From positions 62,001 to 126,000 of the IMG/VR virus record IMGVR_UViG_3300028377_000004: 64,000 nucleotides of DNA; one strand, given 5' to 3'. Position numbers and translations under genes: made by a program. This document shows positions 40,647 to 60,186 of the stretch, in pieces. Origin of the DNA: a virus. Positions within the stretch are counted from its first letter, which is position 1, and every line of letters starts with the position of its first letter. The notes beneath the pieces were generated by a model that was not told the origin of the DNA, did no database searches, and was given only the letters and a program-made list of their open reading frames with translations.

Positions 40647-40862
40647 TTATTGGTAATTTTTCTTGTTTACATCCGTCTGATAAAAGCCATCCCCTTTATA
40701 ATGAATCAAATAGGATCCAGAAATGACCTTACACATTTCGCCTTCACATTTAGAACAAATGGGTCGCTCTTCGGCTTCCCTACTAACTGAAGAAATAAGA
40801 ACATCTTCTTCGACGTGTCCACATTCTTCTTCGTCTTTACATTTATAAGTATAAATCGGCAT
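40647..40862 (-). CDS. FmdB-type zinc ribbon protein
   Basis: 71 aa. It begins MPIYTYKC and has Cys at 8, 14, 36, 39 and 44; the SKCEGEMCKVISG block and the closing YKGDGFYQTD follow the pattern of the FmdB/CxxC regulatory family (usual form PLYEYxCxxCG ... CPxCG ... GxGWYxTD). Family members are small putative nucleic-acid or protein-binding zinc ribbons common in phages. The first Cys pair is spaced unusually (an insertion KDEEE). Metal binding is likely; target unknown. Confidence 0.75.
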   Translation of the reverse strand: MPIYTYKCKDEEECGHVEEDVLISSVSREAEERPICSKCEGEMCKVISGSYLIHYKGDGFYQTDVNKKNYQ

Positions 40863-40886
40863 TACAATTATTCTCTTGGATAAGTG

Positions 40887-41444
40887 TTAGTCTTCTTCCA
40901 TCGACAAATGAACAGCTTCTACGTCTTCCACGAAAATAGAACTGTCTCTTTCATAAAAAACTGTCCCATCATGATAAGCTTGCCGGGCAAGGATGGAAAT
41001 AACCATAGGGGTTTTGATTCTCCTTCGCTTTCCGTCAGCTATTGCTGCTCCAAAGTCATCAAAAATTTCTGTATATTTTCGACGCATAGGTTGAATCCCA
41101 TATTCAGAAAGGGACCTATAATGCCTACGACTCTCCACCCGAAAAAGGACTTGGGAGGGAGGCTCAATAACTTTGTACCGAACTTTTTCTGTGGTGTGAC
41201 CCACCAAGGCTCTGAGGGCAGTCTCATCATCTGAGATATCAAACCGACCCCTATTGGCGTTTGTAACTGCATCCAGAATCTCTTCTAATGTAATCTGATA
41301 CGGCGTCATCTTCTCAAATCCCGTAAGAAGACTCTCCATAGGAACCCAGCCATCATCATTCATAACGAGATCAAGTCGCTCGGGTTCATGACGAAGGATC
41401 AATGCAATTTCACGAGCTAATTCAGTCTTCGTCAGTTTCATCAT
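40887..41444 (-). CDS. Tpt1/KptA-like RNA 2'-phosphotransferase, divergent
   Basis: 185 aa from the ATG at 41444 (the 190-aa frame starts five codons earlier). N-terminal half matches the family: ILRHEPE (R18, H19), DGWVPMESLL (31-40), LEEILDAV, RGRFDIS, then LRALVGH (R78), the equivalent of RAxQGH. A third Arg cluster (GKRRRIKTPMVISI) corresponds to the last catalytic Arg. The usual LYHGT and HVHLS motifs read VLFRVE and KYTEIFD, so NAD-binding residues have diverged. The family moves an internal RNA 2'-phosphate to NAD, finishing RNA ligation by healing-sealing ligases. Overlaps the upstream gene by 23 nt. Confidence 0.7.
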   Translation of the reverse strand: MMKLTKTELAREIALILRHEPERLDLVMNDDGWVPMESLLTGFEKMTPYQITLEEILDAVTNANRGRFDISDDETALRALVGHTTEKVRYKVIEPPSQVLFRVESRRHYRSLSEYGIQPMRRKYTEIFDDFGAAIADGKRRRIKTPMVISILARQAYHDGTVFYERDSSIFVEDVEAVHLSMEED

Positions 41445-41757
41445 TATTTTCCGGGGCATTATTTGGAGAAATTAAAACAGAGATAGTGCCTACCCTTTCA
41501 ACATCTAAAATAGAACTACAAGGAGCCTCACTACTATCATCATCATCATCATCATTTGTATTGGGCCAACTTTGAGGGATAGGAGGAGTCACTTTATAAC
41601 GCCACCACCCTTTACCACTTCTAGTGAGTACTACTTCTCGATCAGGAAAACAGGAAGTAGCAACTTCTTCATGGATAGTAGCCGCCACATAAATTCCCGT
41701 TCTTCCATAGTTGCGATAAGGAGCTACGCGAAATTTCGTCATCTCTTCTTTTTTCAT
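41422..41757 (-). CDS. Unknown protein with poly-Asp linker
   Basis: 111 aa. A compact N-terminal part (FRVAPYRNYGRTGIYVAATI, GKGWWRYKVTPP) is followed by a DDDDDD run coded by GAT repeats and an acidic tail. Not recognised. Its end overlaps the Tpt1-like gene start, which suggests coupled expression. Confidence 0.6.
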   Translation of the reverse strand: MKKEEMTKFRVAPYRNYGRTGIYVAATIHEEVATSCFPDREVVLTRSGKGWWRYKVTPPIPQSWPNTNDDDDDDSSEAPCSSILDVERVGTISVLISPNNAPENNDETDED

Positions 41758-41818
41758 TTTACTATCCCTAACGTTGTCCAGAATATATCAATACTTTCTA
41801 CATAAAGAAAACCATATT

Positions 41819-42043
41819 CTAAGGAAGTAAATCCTCAACAGGAATAAAGATGAAATTGCCATCTTCCCCTTCGGCCACATTCCACCCTAGTTTCCTATAT
41901 TCGTTTAACAGGTAATGTGGAACGGGCGCAGGAACTGTTACTTCGGGTTCCTCAGTGTCCCAATTATGATGGTACAGAATATGATCAATTCGTTCTTCTT
42001 GAAGACGCAATTTAGCATTTGAGGCGCGATAAGGAGACAACAT
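41819..42043 (-). CDS. Small unknown protein
   Basis: 74 aa, AAGGATGG before the ATG. Amphipathic helix at 10-28 (KLRLQEERIDHILYH), then a Pro-rich link (PAPVPHYLLNEYRKLGW) and a short hairpin (GNFIFIPV). Not recognised. Confidence 0.55.
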   Translation of the reverse strand: MLSPYRASNAKLRLQEERIDHILYHHNWDTEEPEVTVPAPVPHYLLNEYRKLGWNVAEGEDGNFIFIPVEDLLP

Positions 42044-42352: not shown

Positions 42353-42871
42353 TCAATCCAAAAGGCTACCAAAGAGATCCTTGAAAGAAACCTCATCGGG
42401 GAACTTAGCCGGATGCTCTTTTGAGATTTCTCCCTCAAATAAGATATCAGGTCTTTGGTGTGGGGGCAATTCATCTAATAGAGCCTCTTTTTGACCATGA
42501 AGACGCCCTTCAATGATATTCCGATACACATCATCTTCGTCCAGATCAATCAGTGAGCAGGACCTTCCTTGGCGCATGGCAGCAATTCCGGTAGTGCCAG
42601 AGCCGCAAAAAGGGTCTAGAATATGGTCACCTTCCTGGCTAAGGGTAGATACCAACCATTCCATAACTTCGATGGGCTTGACTGTTGGATGAATATTTCC
42701 AGTTGTAACCTGGGGACCCTTATCTTTTTGCTCTAAATGGTCATATTCATTTTTTTCTATACGGATCCATTTTCCCTCTTCTTGCGTCCAATATAAATGC
42801 TCACATCCCAAATCCCGTTCGGATCTAGAAGCTTTTGCAGCATAGCGAAATGGTACTTCTTTGTCAGTCAT
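42353..42871 (-). CDS. DNA methyltransferase, C-terminal half (motifs X and I)
   Basis: 172 aa with its own AAAGGGATA ribosome site. It begins with FRYAAKASRSERDLG, the segment that follows the WEP-x-x-x-xRKP block in single-chain N4/N6-type enzymes. Then NIHPTVKPIEVMEWL (motif X) and ILDPFCGSGTT (motif I, AdoMet binding) at about residues 85-100, and SLIDLDEDDVYRNIIEGR. The catalytic DPPY motif is missing here and is in the upstream ORF, 18 nt away. The two ORFs together make one complete beta-class methyltransferase, so the gene has been split between the target and AdoMet halves. The halves presumably assemble. Confidence 0.8.
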   Translation of the reverse strand: MTDKEVPFRYAAKASRSERDLGCEHLYWTQEEGKWIRIEKNEYDHLEQKDKGPQVTTGNIHPTVKPIEVMEWLVSTLSQEGDHILDPFCGSGTTGIAAMRQGRSCSLIDLDEDDVYRNIIEGRLHGQKEALLDELPPHQRPDILFEGEISKEHPAKFPDEVSFKDLFGSLLD

Positions 42872-42889
42872 TTTAGTGTATCCCTTTAG

Positions 42890-44644
42890 TCATTCTTTTG
42901 GAGGTGTCATTATATACTCGATTTGATCCTCAGAGCATCCATAGTTAGCAAGCAATGCGGGCAAGTCTAATTGTATAGGCAATTCGGGCTTCCTAACTAT
43001 TAAACATGGTTCCCAGGCGGGCTTAAGGGCTGTGCCTAGTCCGTTAATGCTTTCTACATATTGATCGTCAGGAAGAAGGCACCACGAGCATACACGGCAA
43101 GTTAGATCATGGTCCTCATAGTCATCAAGGATCAATTTTCGATCTTGCTCTTTGTTGGAGTCTGGTCCCGCATTGATATCAAATAGGGAGTCGTCATAAA
43201 TATAATTATCCTTTTCAGAGCCACACTGGCAGCGTGCGTTTCCTTCGGGACCGTACCTGCCATCTTTCTTGAGCTTCTTCTTCAAAATTTTGAAAACATT
43301 TTGACTTTTTGGGAAGCCGCTATTTCCACTAATGAAAATCCTTCCGTTACGACGAACCATTACAGCGCCAGTCTCTACTGTGACACACCACACGTCTCCT
43401 TCATAATGTTGTTTGTGATGAGCTTTTAAATGTTTACCCTGTAGTTGAGTCTTAGGATTATCGTGGAGTGATACGCAGATAGCTTTTTCATTAATCCTAC
43501 CCTGCAACCCAATCATGTGTGCAAGAGTTTGCATCTTTTCCAGATCCTCTAAGCTTTTTTGATAGAAATCAAAACTGCCACGAGCAGTGCATCCATCCCC
43601 TCTCATAGCTGCATCAAAGAAAGCCAGCTTTTCTTTTTGAGTCATTTGCCATAAAAGATCCCAGGAAGGACTTTTATCTGGCAGAATTTCCCGAATCTGT
43701 AGTGCAGGATCTCCAGACATAAACCACATACATTCTCTTTCCCTACTATATTCCTTATGGTCAATGCTCATGCGAACAAGAAGATCCCTTATGGAATCTA
43801 CATGTTCTTGATTGGTACAGGTCTGATAAATACGAACTCCTGTTCCAGAATTGTCATAACCCCCTTCTGTCCAAATCCAACCAAGTAACGAAGCAAAGTC
43901 TTTCCCTCCAATGCCGGGACCTTCGTGGCGTCCTGATAATGGTAAGTTTACCGTATTCCACCGATTAATTTCACCTGCTTCTTTAACCTCCCATTGATCC
44001 TCGAATGAGGTTTTACGGATACCATCGGTTTGTTTCCTGTGCAGAGGTTTAGCATAAACCCTATGGTTAGGGGTCAGAAGTTGGTCTGTATTGTCGTTTT
44101 TGAAATGGATCATATCTCCCTTATAAGGGGCTAGGATCTTTCGTTGTACGGGAACAAAACGAATTTCTTCTGTTTCAGGATCCCATGCTGCTACCTTATC
44201 GCCTTCCAAAACCTCTGTACCCTTTTTCCATCCTTCCGGAGTCAGGATATCTGTGTCATCACTATAGCATCCGTAGGCCCAGGCAAATATTTTTTCTACA
44301 GAAAATCCTGAAATTCGTAGGGATGCAGTCATAAGATCTAAAGTTCTTGTCCCTGAAAATACCGCTCCACGAGCACCCGGTTTTAATACCCTCAACACTT
44401 CACGCCAGATCTCTGGGCCAGGCACAATTGAGTCCCAATTTGCGTTCATAAAACCTCCCCCTTTACCTGCATGATCCCCTTCCTGAATCCAACTTCTTAA
44501 AAGTTCAACAGGATCAGGTTCTTGTCCAAGTCCGTAAGGTGGATCAGTAATTAAAACATCTACTGAGTTTTCCTCAAAATTTTCTCGAAGCACCTTAGCG
44601 GAATCTCCAATAGATAAATCAATCTTCAATTTTTTAGTCTTCAT
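42890..44644 (-). CDS. DNA methyltransferase, N-terminal half (DPPY), interrupted by an intein
   Basis: 584 aa, GGAGG before the ATG. Extein: DVLITDPPYGLG (motif IV, residues 29-40), NANWDSIVP and LRVLKPGARGAVFSG (motif V/VI). Splicing out residues 126-441 joins FAWAYG to SGFPKSQNVFK, restoring the SGFPKS motif of these enzymes. The C-terminal extein holds an inserted zinc-ribbon-like piece (RCQCG, CRVCSWC) and WEPCLIVRKP. It then stops; motifs X and I are in the next ORF. Function in the family: N4-cytosine or N6-adenine methylation, for protecting phage DNA from restriction or for regulation. Activity would need both protein splicing and association of two chains. Confidence 0.85.
   Translation of the reverse strand: MKTKKLKIDLSIGDSAKVLRENFEENSVDVLITDPPYGLGQEPDPVELLRSWIQEGDHAGKGGGFMNANWDSIVPGPEIWREVLRVLKPGARGAVFSGTRTLDLMTASLRISGFSVEKIFAWAYGCYSDDTDILTPEGWKKGTEVLEGDKVAAWDPETEEIRFVPVQRKILAPYKGDMIHFKNDNTDQLLTPNHRVYAKPLHRKQTDGIRKTSFEDQWEVKEAGEINRWNTVNLPLSGRHEGPGIGGKDFASLLGWIWTEGGYDNSGTGVRIYQTCTNQEHVDSIRDLLVRMSIDHKEYSRERECMWFMSGDPALQIREILPDKSPSWDLLWQMTQKEKLAFFDAAMRGDGCTARGSFDFYQKSLEDLEKMQTLAHMIGLQGRINEKAICVSLHDNPKTQLQGKHLKAHHKQHYEGDVWCVTVETGAVMVRRNGRIFISGNSGFPKSQNVFKILKKKLKKDGRYGPEGNARCQCGSEKDNYIYDDSLFDINAGPDSNKEQDRKLILDDYEDHDLTCRVCSWCLLPDDQYVESINGLGTALKPAWEPCLIVRKPELPIQLDLPALLANYGCSEDQIEYIMTPPKE
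43322..44269 (-). mobile_element. LAGLIDADG intein inside the methyltransferase gene
   Basis: 316-residue intein coded within the host frame. It starts with Cys (CYSDDTDILTPEGWK, block A). Block B is TPNHRVY (His194 of the precursor). Two LAGLIDADG-type motifs are seen (LLGWIWTEGG at 253-262, FFDAAMRGDG at 343-351), so a homing endonuclease is present. Blocks F and G are VWCVTVETG and IFISGN followed by extein Ser. The penultimate His is replaced by Gly, a variation known in other inteins. The insertion point is the conserved SGFPKS motif. Confidence 0.9.
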
Positions 44645-55262: not shown

Positions 55263-55671
55263 AACTACGACTCAGCATAGTGTGAAATTCCTCTATATTA
55301 TGGTCTGCATAGATGAAAGATACCAGACCATAAACCGCTTCCTTAAGAGTATCTGCAAAGAAAGCCGGGGGCTCTTCCATAAATTCTGAATAGGAATACA
55401 TCAAAAGGGTAAGAGATGAACATCTATCCTCATAAGACTGATCCTCTACGGGGTAATCCAGAGGAATGCAATTCGCGGAGAATGTACCCTTATCTCTTCT
55501 AGAACTTATCACATATTGATAATTCTTATAGTCGAAAACGATACCCCACTGTTTAGATATCACAACAGATCCAGGTAAGTATTTTTTGATAAATCCAGTG
55601 GGGGAGATATTAGAGAGGGTATGAGAAACGTCGGGGTGAAGAATATGTTTAGTAGCTAGAATAGAAGACAT
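55243..55671 (-). CDS. Unknown protein, accessory cluster
   Basis: 142 aa. Strands GSVVISKQWGIVFDYKNYQYVISS and a closing helix FADTLKEAVYGLVSFIYADHNIEEFH. The order (strands, then an acidic helix with a small-residue face) recurs in several neighbours. It starts directly on the stop of the next gene. Not recognised. Confidence 0.55.
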   Translation of the reverse strand: MSSILATKHILHPDVSHTLSNISPTGFIKKYLPGSVVISKQWGIVFDYKNYQYVISSRRDKGTFSANCIPLDYPVEDQSYEDRCSSLTLLMYSYSEFMEEPPAFFADTLKEAVYGLVSFIYADHNIEEFHTMLSRSSTLQYD

Positions 55672-56280
55672 CTAAAAGTATCCGTAAAAAATCTGCTTTA
55701 AGGCCATTCCTGCGCCTGTAAGGGTCTTTGAATAAGAATCGGAGTCCTCGGTCCACGTTCGTCCTTTAAACCCTACACGAGCAATATAACGTCCTTCTGC
55801 GAAGTTATATCCAATTACGGCTAGAGGATTTGAGGTACTTTTAGTGTGACCTTCAAACTTTAACCCCATAACTGCCACTTCCTCGATCTCATTCCATCGC
55901 CAAAAGCTAGGAATAGCTACTATGGGTTTCTCTGCAAATATCCGTTTACACTGTCCTAAAAAATCCTCGTGCATATTGCCAAGGACATATTTACGGTATA
56001 AAAAGATAGCCTCTTTAAAAAGATCATTGGGATCGTCTATTTTGGGTCCATTCAAACGATCCCAACCTTGATTTCCAAGGACGATAGAAGTATCTAACTC
56101 TATCGTAAAAGTTTGGTTTTTCATGGATTTGACTATAAAAGTCTGTACGCCATATCCAATACAAAACCGTTCTTCCCAACACGGGTCATTGACCTCTTTT
56201 TTGAACTCTATTATCCTGAGATAAGGAACATCAAAAAGGCTATTAGTTTTTGTTATGTTTTGGAGGGTCACTTTATTCAT
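55672..56280 (-). CDS. Unknown protein, accessory cluster
   Basis: 202 aa. RIIEFKKEVNDPCWEERFCIGYG, a middle helix (NDLFKEAIFLYRKYVLGN) and a C-terminal KFEGHTKSTSNPLAVIGYNFAEGRYIARVGFKG sheet with a final helix (TLTGAGMALKQIFYGYF). Weak ribosome site. Same general architecture as the 58774 and 59357 genes. Not recognised. Confidence 0.55.
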   Translation of the reverse strand: MNKVTLQNITKTNSLFDVPYLRIIEFKKEVNDPCWEERFCIGYGVQTFIVKSMKNQTFTIELDTSIVLGNQGWDRLNGPKIDDPNDLFKEAIFLYRKYVLGNMHEDFLGQCKRIFAEKPIVAIPSFWRWNEIEEVAVMGLKFEGHTKSTSNPLAVIGYNFAEGRYIARVGFKGRTWTEDSDSYSKTLTGAGMALKQIFYGYF

Positions 56281-56310
56281 ATCGTCATCGTCGAAGGCGA
56301 AATCGTTAGT

Positions 56311-56844
56311 TTAGCTTTCCAGTATTAGAGAAGGAATGAGACAGGATCCAAAACCCTTGGTAGGGCCACTTGACTTAATGTCAAAACCTAACGTCCCCAT
56401 CGACTCATAAAATCTTTTGTTTGCTGCGGAAGGTGGTACTTCAAAAGAGAGCCTGATAGGAACGCTACTCATTTCAGTGTCCACTACTACAACACTGGAC
56501 TCGAAATTTGAAGAGTTGCCCCCATGCCCTAATTTACAGATCAACCAGGAAATAGCCATGGCAGGTGTTTTATAGATATAACCCTCTTCCATAGGCGTGT
56601 CAGGATCGATGTCATGGATCATAATTCCACCGCCCCTCTCAATCTGGATCATTCGCCCCTGCGCATATCCTACTGCATAGGATCCGCCCCTCCCTATCCC
56701 GTCATCCCTGCTTGGAATGATGATTCCAAAAGGTAGAGTTTCGAGGATATCACAGATCGCATCTAATGTATCTTCTTCGGTTTCTAGCCCATCAAGGGAG
56801 GCAATGGGATTGGTGTAAATGTCGGGGATAAGTTCATCACTCAC
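56311..56844 (-). CDS. Unknown protein, accessory cluster
   Basis: 177 aa. DTLDAICDILETLPFGIIIPSRDDGIGRGGSYAVGYAQG, then PAMAISWLICKLGHGG and a beta-rich end. The Gly-rich loop is not a P-loop. AGGAGTAT precedes the ATG at 56844. Not recognised. Confidence 0.55.
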   Translation of the reverse strand: MSDELIPDIYTNPIASLDGLETEEDTLDAICDILETLPFGIIIPSRDDGIGRGGSYAVGYAQGRMIQIERGGGIMIHDIDPDTPMEEGYIYKTPAMAISWLICKLGHGGNSSNFESSVVVVDTEMSSVPIRLSFEVPPSAANKRFYESMGTLGFDIKSSGPTKGFGSCLIPSLILES

Positions 56845-56860
56845 GGTATACTCCTTTTTG

Positions 56861-57523
56861 TTATAAAGTTAACGCTCCAAAAAATTCATCATAAAACTTG
56901 TCTAAGTCATAATTAGCATAGACATAATTGATACCTGCCCATATTAGGAAAGAAGGATCTTCCCCATATAAAATTCGGTTGGAGGATTCTCTAGTTTCAA
57001 CTACAAGTACAAAGGTATATGGAACCTCTTGCGGAGACCACGTAGGTCCTGCCCCTTGCCAGTTCTCCTCTACGCCAATATCATGGCCCTCTATCGAGAA
57101 AGAAGGGAGTCCTATATTGGAATGTGTATTTTTAGCTTCGGGCAAATACTCCTCAACCAAAGTATCTGCTAATATGTCCCTTTTGTCAATGGAAGATTCA
57201 TAAGCATGATCCCCCATTTCAAGGGTACCAACCTTGGGAATGCCGATAAATCGATCTCCAAACGTCAGGCGAAGTCCTAACCTGTCAGGATCTGGATTCT
57301 TGGAGGTAGATAAGATTTCTAAAATTTTAGGGTCTTGTGAATTTCCCTTCAAGTCCTTAAAAATATCTGTACTACCAGGATTATAGCAATCTTTCCAGAC
57401 CCCCTGCTTAGAGGGAGGATCCTGCTTTTCCTGCACAGATTCTAAGATATCAAAAAACTTCTGATTTTCATGCTTGATAATCTGACGCCTTAAATACTCC
57501 CGCAGTTCTTTCAGTTTTGCCAT
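56861..57523 (-). CDS. Unknown protein, accessory cluster
   Basis: 220 aa from the ATG at 57523, with TTAGGAG upstream. Basic N-terminal helix (KELREYLRRQIIKHENQKF). The middle has LADTLVEEYLPEAKNTHS, whose EYLPEA also occurs in the 62671 gene. C-terminal strand-helix pair (YTFVLVVETRESS, FLIWAGINYVYANYDLDKF). Not recognised. Confidence 0.55.
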   Translation of the reverse strand: MAKLKELREYLRRQIIKHENQKFFDILESVQEKQDPPSKQGVWKDCYNPGSTDIFKDLKGNSQDPKILEILSTSKNPDPDRLGLRLTFGDRFIGIPKVGTLEMGDHAYESSIDKRDILADTLVEEYLPEAKNTHSNIGLPSFSIEGHDIGVEENWQGAGPTWSPQEVPYTFVLVVETRESSNRILYGEDPSFLIWAGINYVYANYDLDKFYDEFFGALTL

Positions 57524-57630
57524 AAACAATCTCCTAATCATCCTTGCACTTTTAAACTACAGGTCCAATAATTAAATTACTGACCAAAAATGCAGGTACT
57601 ACTTAAACGAAAAGGAAATGTTTTCTATTC

Positions 57631-58194
57631 TTATTTCAACGGATTATCTAGATAGTCAGAAGGATCTGCTAAAGGATTGATAATTTTGAGGGAAGCAGGC
57701 TTGCCGCTTTTCCTAGAGATGAAACCTTCTTCTACCAATTGAGCATACAGTCTAGAAAGGTCTACACTGGAAAACCCCAGATTTGAATGAATAGCTGAAC
57801 TACCAGGTATTGAGCCTGTACCATGTTTTTCTTTATAAAATTGGATGAAAGCTAGAAGCCGGAGATGATCATTATTGGGATGAGGATGTCTATCCAATTC
57901 CTCTCGAAGGTGCTCGTCACCTTCCTCTATTTTGGCGTAGGCGTCTTCTTGTTCCGTATGGGAGGAAACTATATAGTCAACATCAAACTCTTCCGCTAAC
58001 TCTGCCAGAGAGCTTTCTAGAGCCTCATTAAGCATTGTTTCCAGTCTACTCTTTAAAGTTTTCTCAATAAAAGCCTGTCCCATAGGAAGTAGAACGTCTT
58101 CAATAGCAGTTGCCATTTTATCTTTAATAACGGATTCTACCTTGGTTTCGATATAGGTATCTATTTGTTCTCGTAGGGCCTGTAATGATTTCAT
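57631..58194 (-). CDS. Winged-helix protein with LexA-like C-terminal DNA-binding domain
   Basis: 187 aa from the ATG at 58194 (TAAGGT upstream). Residues 1-90 are a long amphipathic helical region (MLNEALESSLAELAEEF) suited to oligomerisation. Residues about 115-185 fit a winged helix: RLLAFIQFYKEKHGTGSIPGSSAIHSNLGFSS, then VDLSRLYAQLVEEGFISRKSGKPASLKI, matching the LexA-type pattern (helix, Pro-containing turn, recognition helix, wing with SGKPA). No peptidase domain. A phage transcription factor is the likely role; targets unknown. Confidence 0.6.
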   Translation of the reverse strand: MKSLQALREQIDTYIETKVESVIKDKMATAIEDVLLPMGQAFIEKTLKSRLETMLNEALESSLAELAEEFDVDYIVSSHTEQEDAYAKIEEGDEHLREELDRHPHPNNDHLRLLAFIQFYKEKHGTGSIPGSSAIHSNLGFSSVDLSRLYAQLVEEGFISRKSGKPASLKIINPLADPSDYLDNPLK

Positions 58195-58773: not shown

Positions 58774-59373
58774 CTATTTCCCGAAAACAGCATATTGCAA
58801 GGCATCCGATACACACCCTACCCAGTCTTCAGTAGCTATTATCTTGCTTTGATCAAGATATTGTGTCCCATCAAATTCAAATAAGTACATTGATCTGGCA
58901 TAGTCATATCCAAACCAGATATTGTATTTTCGGAAAAATTCCACCCTAAGTAGAACCTGTCCCTCATCCCCCAAATATACCTGTTCTCTTTTAACAAAAT
59001 TGTCAGGTTCCCTTGACAAATATTTCCTAGCTTGAAATTGAAAACTATTCATCAAAACATTAAGACCTTCCCTATGAACGATCTTTATACACTGTCGAAA
59101 AAGATGTAGCCCTTGTTCCCAAGGAAATCCTAGAATCATCTTAGGGTAAACTTGGCGATTAGAAATAGGATTAAAATATTTTTCTAAGATATAATAGCCA
59201 GCAGCGGACATTTCAATATCCATCTTATTTCCAAAATATTCTATCTCTAAATCAGTAGGAAATTTCTCGAATTCCCGTTTACAGTTTGTAAGTATTTTAA
59301 AGCCCTTTGGCAATGAAAACAAGTCTGTATGATAAGAATTATTTTCCAAGCTCACTCTATTCATCTTCATCAC
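58774..59373 (-). CDS. Unknown protein, related to the 59357 gene
   Basis: 199 aa; the first codon is GTG followed by ATGs three and nine bases on, so the exact start is uncertain. FSLPKGFKIL, LEIEYFGNKMDIEM and a C-terminal EDWVGCVSDALQYA are shared in order with LPQGLKIY, LEISYFGIPMFIKI and DTWKGAVTPMVRAI of the next gene upstream, showing a tandem duplication. It overlaps that gene by 17 nt. Function unknown. Confidence 0.55.
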   Translation of the reverse strand: MMKMNRVSLENNSYHTDLFSLPKGFKILTNCKREFEKFPTDLEIEYFGNKMDIEMSAAGYYILEKYFNPISNRQVYPKMILGFPWEQGLHLFRQCIKIVHREGLNVLMNSFQFQARKYLSREPDNFVKREQVYLGDEGQVLLRVEFFRKYNIWFGYDYARSMYLFEFDGTQYLDQSKIIATEDWVGCVSDALQYAVFGK

Positions 59374-60031
59374 ATGAGGACCAAGGGCTTGACCATGGGT
59401 TGGTTCCCCTCTTAATCCTTTTTATTGCCCTAACCATGGGGGTAACTGCCCCTTTCCAAGTATCAGCGTCCAAGGTCTTCATACCGTCTCCAGTATCCAT
59501 TCTGGCCAATATTTTCTTATCTCGAAAATGGTATCCAAGGGCACATTTAACCTGAACATACTGACGGTTAATTCTTGGTTGTAGAATAAACCCTCCTAAA
59601 CAAAAACTTTTATCGGGCATACTCAGATTTACAAAATTCTGAACATCAGGAAAAAACTCAGAATTTGACTCCCTATTTGAGAGACATTCTGACATGTGTG
59701 CCGCAGTGTGATGATGGAGTTCTTCTACCAGTGACTGGAGACGTTCCATAAAATCCGAAGGATTTGAGCTTACCTCAATCTGACAATTCCCCTGTGTAAA
59801 AACATTATTCATAGTAGCAAAAGGCCATTTAAATTCAGCTTTCGTATGTCCATACGCATCAATTTTTATGAACATAGGAATACCAAAATACGATATCTCT
59901 AGTCTCCCTCCACTAGCCGTTCCAATAATCCCCATTTTACCCATGTCTATTTGATAAATCTTTAGACCTTGCGGAAGGGTAAAAGGTTGGAATCTAGTTT
60001 CGATAGCTCCTTTTAATGAAACATTTGCCAT
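59357..60031 (-). CDS. Unknown protein, related to the 58774 gene
   Basis: 224 aa from the ATG at 60031 (AAGGACC upstream); the longer frame starts in the tRNA region. Beta-rich N-terminal half (GGRLEISYFGIPMFIKIDAYG), a His-rich helix (VEELHHHTAAHMSECLS), and a C-terminal sheet plus helix. Paralogous to the following gene. Function unknown. Confidence 0.55.
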   Translation of the reverse strand: MANVSLKGAIETRFQPFTLPQGLKIYQIDMGKMGIIGTASGGRLEISYFGIPMFIKIDAYGHTKAEFKWPFATMNNVFTQGNCQIEVSSNPSDFMERLQSLVEELHHHTAAHMSECLSNRESNSEFFPDVQNFVNLSMPDKSFCLGGFILQPRINRQYVQVKCALGYHFRDKKILARMDTGDGMKTLDADTWKGAVTPMVRAIKRIKRGTNPWSSPWSSCDEDE

Positions 60032-60060
60032 AATTATTAGGTCCTTATTTAGAATGAAAA

Positions 60061-60186
60061 TGGGCACGGTGGGACTCGAACCCACAACCGATCCGTTATT
60101 CGCCTTTCTGGGATTCGAACCCTAACTACCGATCCATATCGGGAGAGACGTGAGCGGATGGCTCTAACCAATTGAGCTACGTGCCC
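60061..60186 (-). tRNA. tRNA-Met(CAU) with a 52-nt insertion in the anticodon
   Basis: Minus strand: acceptor GGGCACG / CGTGCCC with discriminator A, D arm GCTC / GAGC, anticodon stem ATCCG / CGGAT, 5-nt variable loop, T arm GTGGG-TTCGAGT-CCCAC. All stems are perfect. Removing 52 nt gives the loop CTCATAA, so anticodon CAU of elongator tRNA-Met (or modified Ile). The insertion lies between the second and third anticodon bases, give or take one. It contains its own GGATCGGTAG and GGGTTCGAATCCC, like a degraded second tRNA 3' half, plus a CCGAT/ATCGG hairpin. CCA is not encoded. It is too short for a group I intron, so it may be a pseudo-tRNA or need unusual splicing. Confidence 0.7.

Follow-up and report, generated by a model that had tools for sequence, protein, structure and literature searches.

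An interrupted phage tRNA gene

Can a phage tRNA gene whose anticodon loop is broken by 52 nucleotides (nt), themselves resembling part of a tRNA, still yield a tRNA, and how might the interruption be removed? The gene raising this question lies at 60061..60186 on the minus strand of a 64,000-nt window, i.e., the whole stretch of DNA that we analyzed, corresponding to bases 62001–126000 of a linear 127,574-bp IMG/VR virus record. Judged by its gene content, including DNA polymerase A, thymidylate synthase and a topoisomerase II subunit, the source virus is a phage. The interrupted gene is the sole tRNA in the record. The Rfam model RF00005 covers 60186..60061 across all 71 model positions (55.7 bits, E 2.7e-9), with the insert falling in the anticodon loop. 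The acceptor (7/7), anticodon (5/5) and T (5/5) stems of the outer tRNA are fully paired, as is the D stem by reading (4/4), and shuffles of the window give an expected count of 0.00 for this pattern. The anticodon loop has the form CTCA[52 nt]TAA and removal of the 52 nt restores CTCATAA. The original prediction of a tRNA with a CAU anticodon, split by 52 nt within an otherwise intact set of four stems, is borne out in these respects.

The 5′ exon (60151..60186, minus strand) ends in CTCA at position 35, and the 3′ exon (60061..60098, minus strand) begins with TAA (positions 36–38) and encodes no CCA. The insertion site can be placed between positions 35 and 36 or 34 and 35, cuts after CTC and CTCA being equally possible and giving the same product. 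Default ARAGORN reports no tRNA for this gene; with introns allowed, it reports a single tRNA with a 52-nt intron at the standard site, which it calls Val(CAC). The spliced CAU product could be an elongator tRNA-Met or a tRNA-Ile with CAU read by way of lysidine, and the pair G1–C72 argues against fMet. Hence, the tRNA-Met identity first assigned to the gene holds as to the CAU anticodon, with Met and Ile-CAU fitting alike. The GTG start of an ORF at 59357–60085 (minus strand) lies within the tRNA gene; its true start is probably a later ATG (MANVSLK) outside the tRNA.

The insert as a degenerate nested tRNA

Structural parsing resolves the putative intron (60099..60150, minus strand) into a nested mini-tRNA of 52 nt, all elements of which lie on the same minus strand. 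Its acceptor-like helix opens at the 5′ junction, a predicted RNase P site, with the strand CGTCTCT (60144..60150), which forms 6/7 pairs with AAAGGCG (60101..60107). An extra hairpin, CCGAT-ATGG-ATCGG (60129..60142), evident from the sequence and the computed fold, replaces the D and anticodon arms and is followed by a nested T arm, TAGGG-TTCGAAT-CCCAG (60108..60124), with 4/5 pairs. The insert closes with an AA tail (60099..60100), which comprises the discriminator and one further nt and marks the predicted RNase Z region. By this reading of its sequence, the insert is an acceptor/T-arm minihelix in the order acceptor, spacer with small hairpin, T arm, acceptor and AA, devoid of a D arm. The locus had earlier been described as one 5′ half with two 3′ halves; the T-arm part of that description stands, while the CGTCTCT/AAAGGCG pairing, which it missed, recasts the whole as a tRNA with a nested acceptor/T-arm minihelix.

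The nested acceptor pairing is equalled by about 1% of shuffles at the exact offset and by 2% across three offsets, and an RF00005 search with the insert alone gave no match. The nested fold, taken without the extra hairpin, has an energy of −31.3 kcal/mol as against −47.0 for the computed minimum free-energy fold, where pairs form between the two T arms. With 6/7 and 4/5 pairs and a tail of 2 nt rather than 1 or 4, the insert is, on its sequence features, one of the weaker members of the class described below. The exact insert sequence had no match in IMG/VR; searches with a neighboring protein, the DNA polymerase and the ligase recovered one distant relative each or none, none near enough to offer an empty site.

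Recurrence of nested elements across phages

Gapped patterns consisting of a D arm followed by two T loops close together were scanned over IMG/VR, with a structural parse of the matches, and the first of these was also scanned over 84,980 prokaryote genomes (257 Gb). In an early gapped scan of IMG/VR, ordinary tRNAs that happened to show a second T arm made up about half of the matches, and some others were different tRNA-like RNAs. Strict nested patterns recovered 15 and 27 stretches in IMG/VR, from which the structural parse retained about 20 further distinct genes. The prokaryote genomes yielded 19 stretches with the first pattern, a single one of which, on a 3.4-kb MAG contig, passes clearly, the remainder being artefacts or unrelated. 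The outer tRNAs of the class comprise Lys, Asn, Arg, Thr, Ile, Val and Met. The inserts share little sequence, while retaining the acceptor and T arm; the part between these ranges from 9 to 84 nt, the shortest being too small for an anticodon arm. Representative cases are the tRNA-Arg of L131, CTTC[CGGTCCC..CAAGG-TTCAATT-CCTTG-GGGACCG-TCCC]TAA; the identical loci L014, L137 and L140, CTT[GTCGAAT..GTTCGAC-TCCA]ATAA; the tRNA-Lys of L169, CTTTT[GTCAGAT..GTCTGGC-ACCA]AA; the tRNA-Asn of L164, CTGT[GGCTTTT..AAAGGTC-T]TAA; and the tRNA-Lys of L175, CTT[CCCGGAA-D arm-T arm-TTCCGGG-ACCA]TTAA. L093 and L136 are relatives, with 88% identity over the tRNA region against 70% in a second stretch common to both, and their T stem is preserved through a G-T/A-T change.

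The scans also brought up other tRNA-like RNAs. Among a dozen named large phages, including Lak-C1, the only match to the first nested pattern was an odd gene of the isolated Aeromonas phage phiAS5 (HM452126, 181316–181413, minus strand; L201), which is tRNA-like and combines two T arms with a single matching acceptor stem. Eleven phage RNAs (L012, L022, L024, L025, L026, L043, L085, L097, L119, L123 and L157) combine a 7-bp acceptor and a T arm with a long central part, many of them with a CGTAA..(ACAGCAA/ACTGCAA) motif; these were rejected as not of the nested kind. A further tRNA-like family (L044, L080, L105, L106 and L113), with the acceptor AACAAGG, CGCAAGG or AGTCAGG, has a differently arranged inner hairpin, CGGTTCGAGTCCG, that is T-arm-like.

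Across 21 inserts, 140/147 acceptor-like positions are paired. Among the 19 inserts whose helix lies close to the 5′ junction, the best-of-three-offset sum reaches 126, whereas permutations average 74.9 (sd 5.7) and none does as well (0/20,000), and each of acceptor positions 2–7 displays 5–6 standard pair types, indicating that the nested acceptor helices strongly covary at the sequence level. Moreover, 16/19 inserts end exactly 1 nt (the discriminator) or 4 nt past the acceptor 3′ strand, with NCCA present in nine. Excision at these mature-tRNA ends gives normal 7-nt loops in most cases, namely CTTTTAA (Lys), CTGTTAA (Asn), CTTCTAA (Arg), CTTGTAA (Thr), CTGATAA (Ile) and CTTACAA (Val), the boundary of L175 being read in a register shifted by 1 nt. 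In L014, L090 and L145, the cut that fits the nested ends gives a UAU anticodon, and moving the cut one base further along yields Thr or Arg. The encoding of CCA in outer and nested parts, counted by hand, shows a weak link (p 0.07).

The predicted products fill isoacceptor gaps at their own loci, as judged on the fetched loci rather than whole genomes: L160 is devoid of intact Lys and Thr tRNAs, L180 of Val, L173 of Asn and L175 of Lys. Intact tRNAs with the same loops exist; the tRNA-Lys of L161 is 88% identical to the spliced L175. ARAGORN calls the nested part plus the 3′ exon a tRNA-Leu(CAA) in L014 (4247–4339), L131 (117–209) and L160 (47–143), likely a recurrent misannotation.

Related introns were previously reported in the Lak megaphages, where anticodon-loop tRNA introns occur as present/absent alleles and that of tRNA-Thr(TGT) was predicted to encode a "possible tRNA" (Devoto et al. 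2019, PMC6784885). The text passages of that report offer no mechanism, and we found none in the later open-access literature. In Lak-A1 (MK250016), the tRNA-Thr(TGT) has a 114-nt insert at CTTGT|AA ending 1 nt past the acceptor, whereas the tRNA-Thr(UGU) of Lak-C1 (MK250029) has no insert, with exons and flanks identical to those of Lak-A1. Conversely, a Gly-like tRNA of Lak-C1 has an insert at CTTCC|AA and its Lak-A1 counterpart is intronless, but the anticodon stem also differs. In both Lak inserts (L202 from Lak-C1 and L205 from Lak-A1), the nested tRNA is preceded by a hairpin of 5 bp, whose loop is AATAAA, and by an A-rich linker. We term these two type II and that of the window type I.

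The window insert parallels its own 3′ half, as originally noted: GGATCGGT..GGGTTCGANTCCCA attains a local score of 37 against that half, with 20 other outer 3′ halves reaching 31 or less, and GGATCGGTAGTTAGGGTTCGAATCCCA of the insert matches the gene's own GGATCGGTTGTGGGTTCGAGTCCCA. We consider this sequence likeness real. It is the best score among the 21 inserts against their own outer halves, the other 20 lacking any such likeness. This raises the alternative of a partial tandem duplication, in which a copy of the gene's own 3′ half entered its anticodon loop and is decaying there, leaving a pseudogene or a transient form. The mismatch in the nested T stem would agree with decay; against it, the exons have stayed intact beside a diverged insert, the T arm is bracketed right at the junction by acceptor-like strands (about 1% by chance), and the same architecture recurs elsewhere without likeness to the own half. 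Tested across the class, derivation from the own outer tRNA is rejected as a general origin (p 0.59). We thus regard the duplication reading as unlikely as a full account, and the allied idea of a recent recombination scar is disfavored by the recurrence of covarying structure and by pristine exons beside an insert diverged from its possible source. Duplication could nonetheless be the route by which the window intron arose, and on sequence grounds it is a possible origin for this insert alone. The insert shares its position, architecture and ligase link with the class, of which it is probably a member; because it is more like its own 3′ half than the other inserts are, its origin may be separate.

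A predicted route of excision and rejoining

We infer that the insert is probably an intron, excised through cleavage by RNase P and RNase Z, with a phage ligase sealing the exons; the splicing of the window copy and every enzymatic step below are predictions. The acceptor stem and T arm form the half of a tRNA recognized by RNase P and RNase Z. A degenerate tRNA reduced to these parts would serve as the intron's own excision signal within the anticodon loop of a working tRNA. Host RNase P would cut where the nested acceptor begins; the other cut, behind the nested discriminator or CCA, would fall to RNase Z or an equivalent enzyme. RNase P leaves a 3′-OH on the leader and RNase Z a 5′-phosphate on the trailer. 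Since leader and trailer are here the two tRNA exons, the cuts would leave a 3′-OH on the 5′ exon and a 5′-phosphate on the 3′ exon, ends of the kind that a T4-Rnl1-type ligase joins without healing. The outer cloverleaf would keep the two halves together while the phage-encoded ligase closes the 7-nt CUCAUAA loop. In the Lak introns, and likewise in L135 and L138, about 25–33 nt precede the nested acceptor, so that RNase P alone would be insufficient for the 5′ splice site; type II inserts would accordingly need an additional 5′ trimming step.

The distribution of RNA ligases (PF09414/PF09511) is consistent with such a sealing step. Among records of at least 100 kb, 9/9 distinct nested ones carry a ligase as compared to 13/23 controls, and among those of 27–99 kb, 5/8 as compared to 6/37 (Mantel–Haenszel p=1.7e-4), the controls having been chosen by pattern and not at random. 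Some of the nested records have weak matches (L135, L140, L160 and L173), and the 35-kb records L131 and L136 have no RNA ligase match. As many large phages encode an RNA ligase in any case, we take the association to be only moderate. Recurrence in many unrelated phages, most with an RNA ligase, suggests that tRNA-end enzymes excise these elements and a phage ligase rejoins the exons.

The window record itself carries, by sequence comparison, a split RNA-repair kit. Outside the window, at contig 55612–57738 (L004), a Pnkp-type phosphatase is fused to an Rnl1-family ligase (CthPnkp-like 4j6o, 1.3e-48; phrog_562, 4e-27; PF09414; no match to PF09511), and a separate Pnkp-type kinase is coded at contig 40759–41886 (CthPnkp-like 4gp7, 1.6e-19). 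Within the window, 40887..41459 (minus strand) codes for a Tpt1/KptA RNA 2′-phosphotransferase (PF01885, E 2.8e-22; phrog_5470, 4.5e-29). At 42353–44644 (minus strand), a DNA methyltransferase lies in two parts. The stretch between them has profile matches in common with models for phage thymidylate synthase, RNR and PhoH that may bear inteins, and is itself a probable intein.

The repair genes suggest that anticodon-loop cleavage matters to this phage, and the kinase/phosphatase and KptA imply repair of breaks with 2′,3′-cyclic phosphate and 5′-OH ends, activities superfluous for RNase P/RNase Z cuts. The intron might then be real and removed by another route: a nuclease leaves such ends, the phage kinase and phosphatase heal them, and KptA removes the 2′-phosphate after ligation, as in fungal tRNA splicing. 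The record with L186, whose tRNA is not a clear nested case, likewise has KptA, and this route could accommodate the Lak-type 5′ hairpin that RNase P and RNase Z leave unexplained. However, most nested records lack KptA, and what the inserts conserve are the features read by RNase P and RNase Z, with boundaries at mature-tRNA ends; we therefore deem this route improbable.

A role of the unspliced pre-tRNA in shielding the anticodon loop from host anticodon nucleases, or of the nested mini-tRNA as the actual product, appears very unlikely to us. Known targets of anticodon nucleases are found among the Lys-UUU, Arg-UCU and Asn tRNAs, which are among those affected, and nine nested elements keep NCCA; yet, most lack an anticodon arm and neither role has direct evidence, nor did we find positive evidence for the nuclease trap originally envisaged. 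An archaeal-type intron at 37/38 in a tRNA-Val(CAC) retains no more than a slight probability: the ARAGORN call presupposes that standard site, which would give Val(CAC) where the CAU product needs a cut at 34/35 or 35/36, the related cases fit 34/35 to 36/37, and we know of no EndA in bacterial hosts.

Relationship to known systems

Like the Lak introns, the window insert lies in the anticodon loop of an intact phage tRNA, is tRNA-like and leaves a 7-nt loop upon removal. However, the Lak inserts sit at 36/37 with a 5′ hairpin and linker, while the window's nested element is shorter, has no D arm and starts at the junction with its acceptor strand; a Lak-type 5′ hairpin with an AATAAA loop is absent from it. 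Of the three ideas originally offered, a short intron is the best supported, though its claim to be of a new kind is partly preempted by the related Lak introns (PMC6784885). T4 Pnkp/Rnl1 repair of PrrC-cleaved tRNA-Lys and the RNA-repair kits of jumbo phages (PMC7824862, PMC9503650) use an Rnl1-family ligase for anticodon-loop breaks, and the window record likewise has such a ligase, together with a kinase, a phosphatase and KptA; those systems mend damage, whereas our proposal concerns the removal of an encoded intron.

The human mascRNA/menRNA offer a parallel in that a degenerate tRNA-like element is excised by RNase P and RNase Z, but at a lncRNA 3′ end and with no rejoining of the flanks; the window insert had no significant Rfam match to mascRNA/menRNA. 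The protein-spliced tRNA introns of archaea and eukaryotes are comparably short and in the anticodon loop, but have a standard site at 37/38 and an endonuclease recognizing a bulge-helix-bulge. Group I introns of bacterial tRNAs also interrupt the anticodon loop, but are self-splicing and far longer than 52 nt; Rfam found no group I core in the window, the tRNA family alone passing.

Implications

To our knowledge, neither bacteria nor their viruses offer an established case of protein-dependent tRNA splicing. The broad class and its mechanism appear new beyond the Lak introns published in 2019. We tentatively propose, at somewhat short of an even bet, that phages have a tRNA-splicing pathway of their own: RNase P and RNase Z would excise a nested degenerate tRNA, and a phage RNA ligase would join the exons. 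Many large phages would then possess "repair" ligases that double as splicing enzymes, and it would be the presence of these ligases that lets such introns persist. Because standard tRNA finders miss nested genes or call their 3′ part tRNA-Leu(CAA), phage tRNA inventories are incomplete. If our proposal is true, splicing could be built from universal tRNA end-processing plus a ligase, which would offer a simple route for the origin of tRNA introns and a second role for phage RNA ligases.
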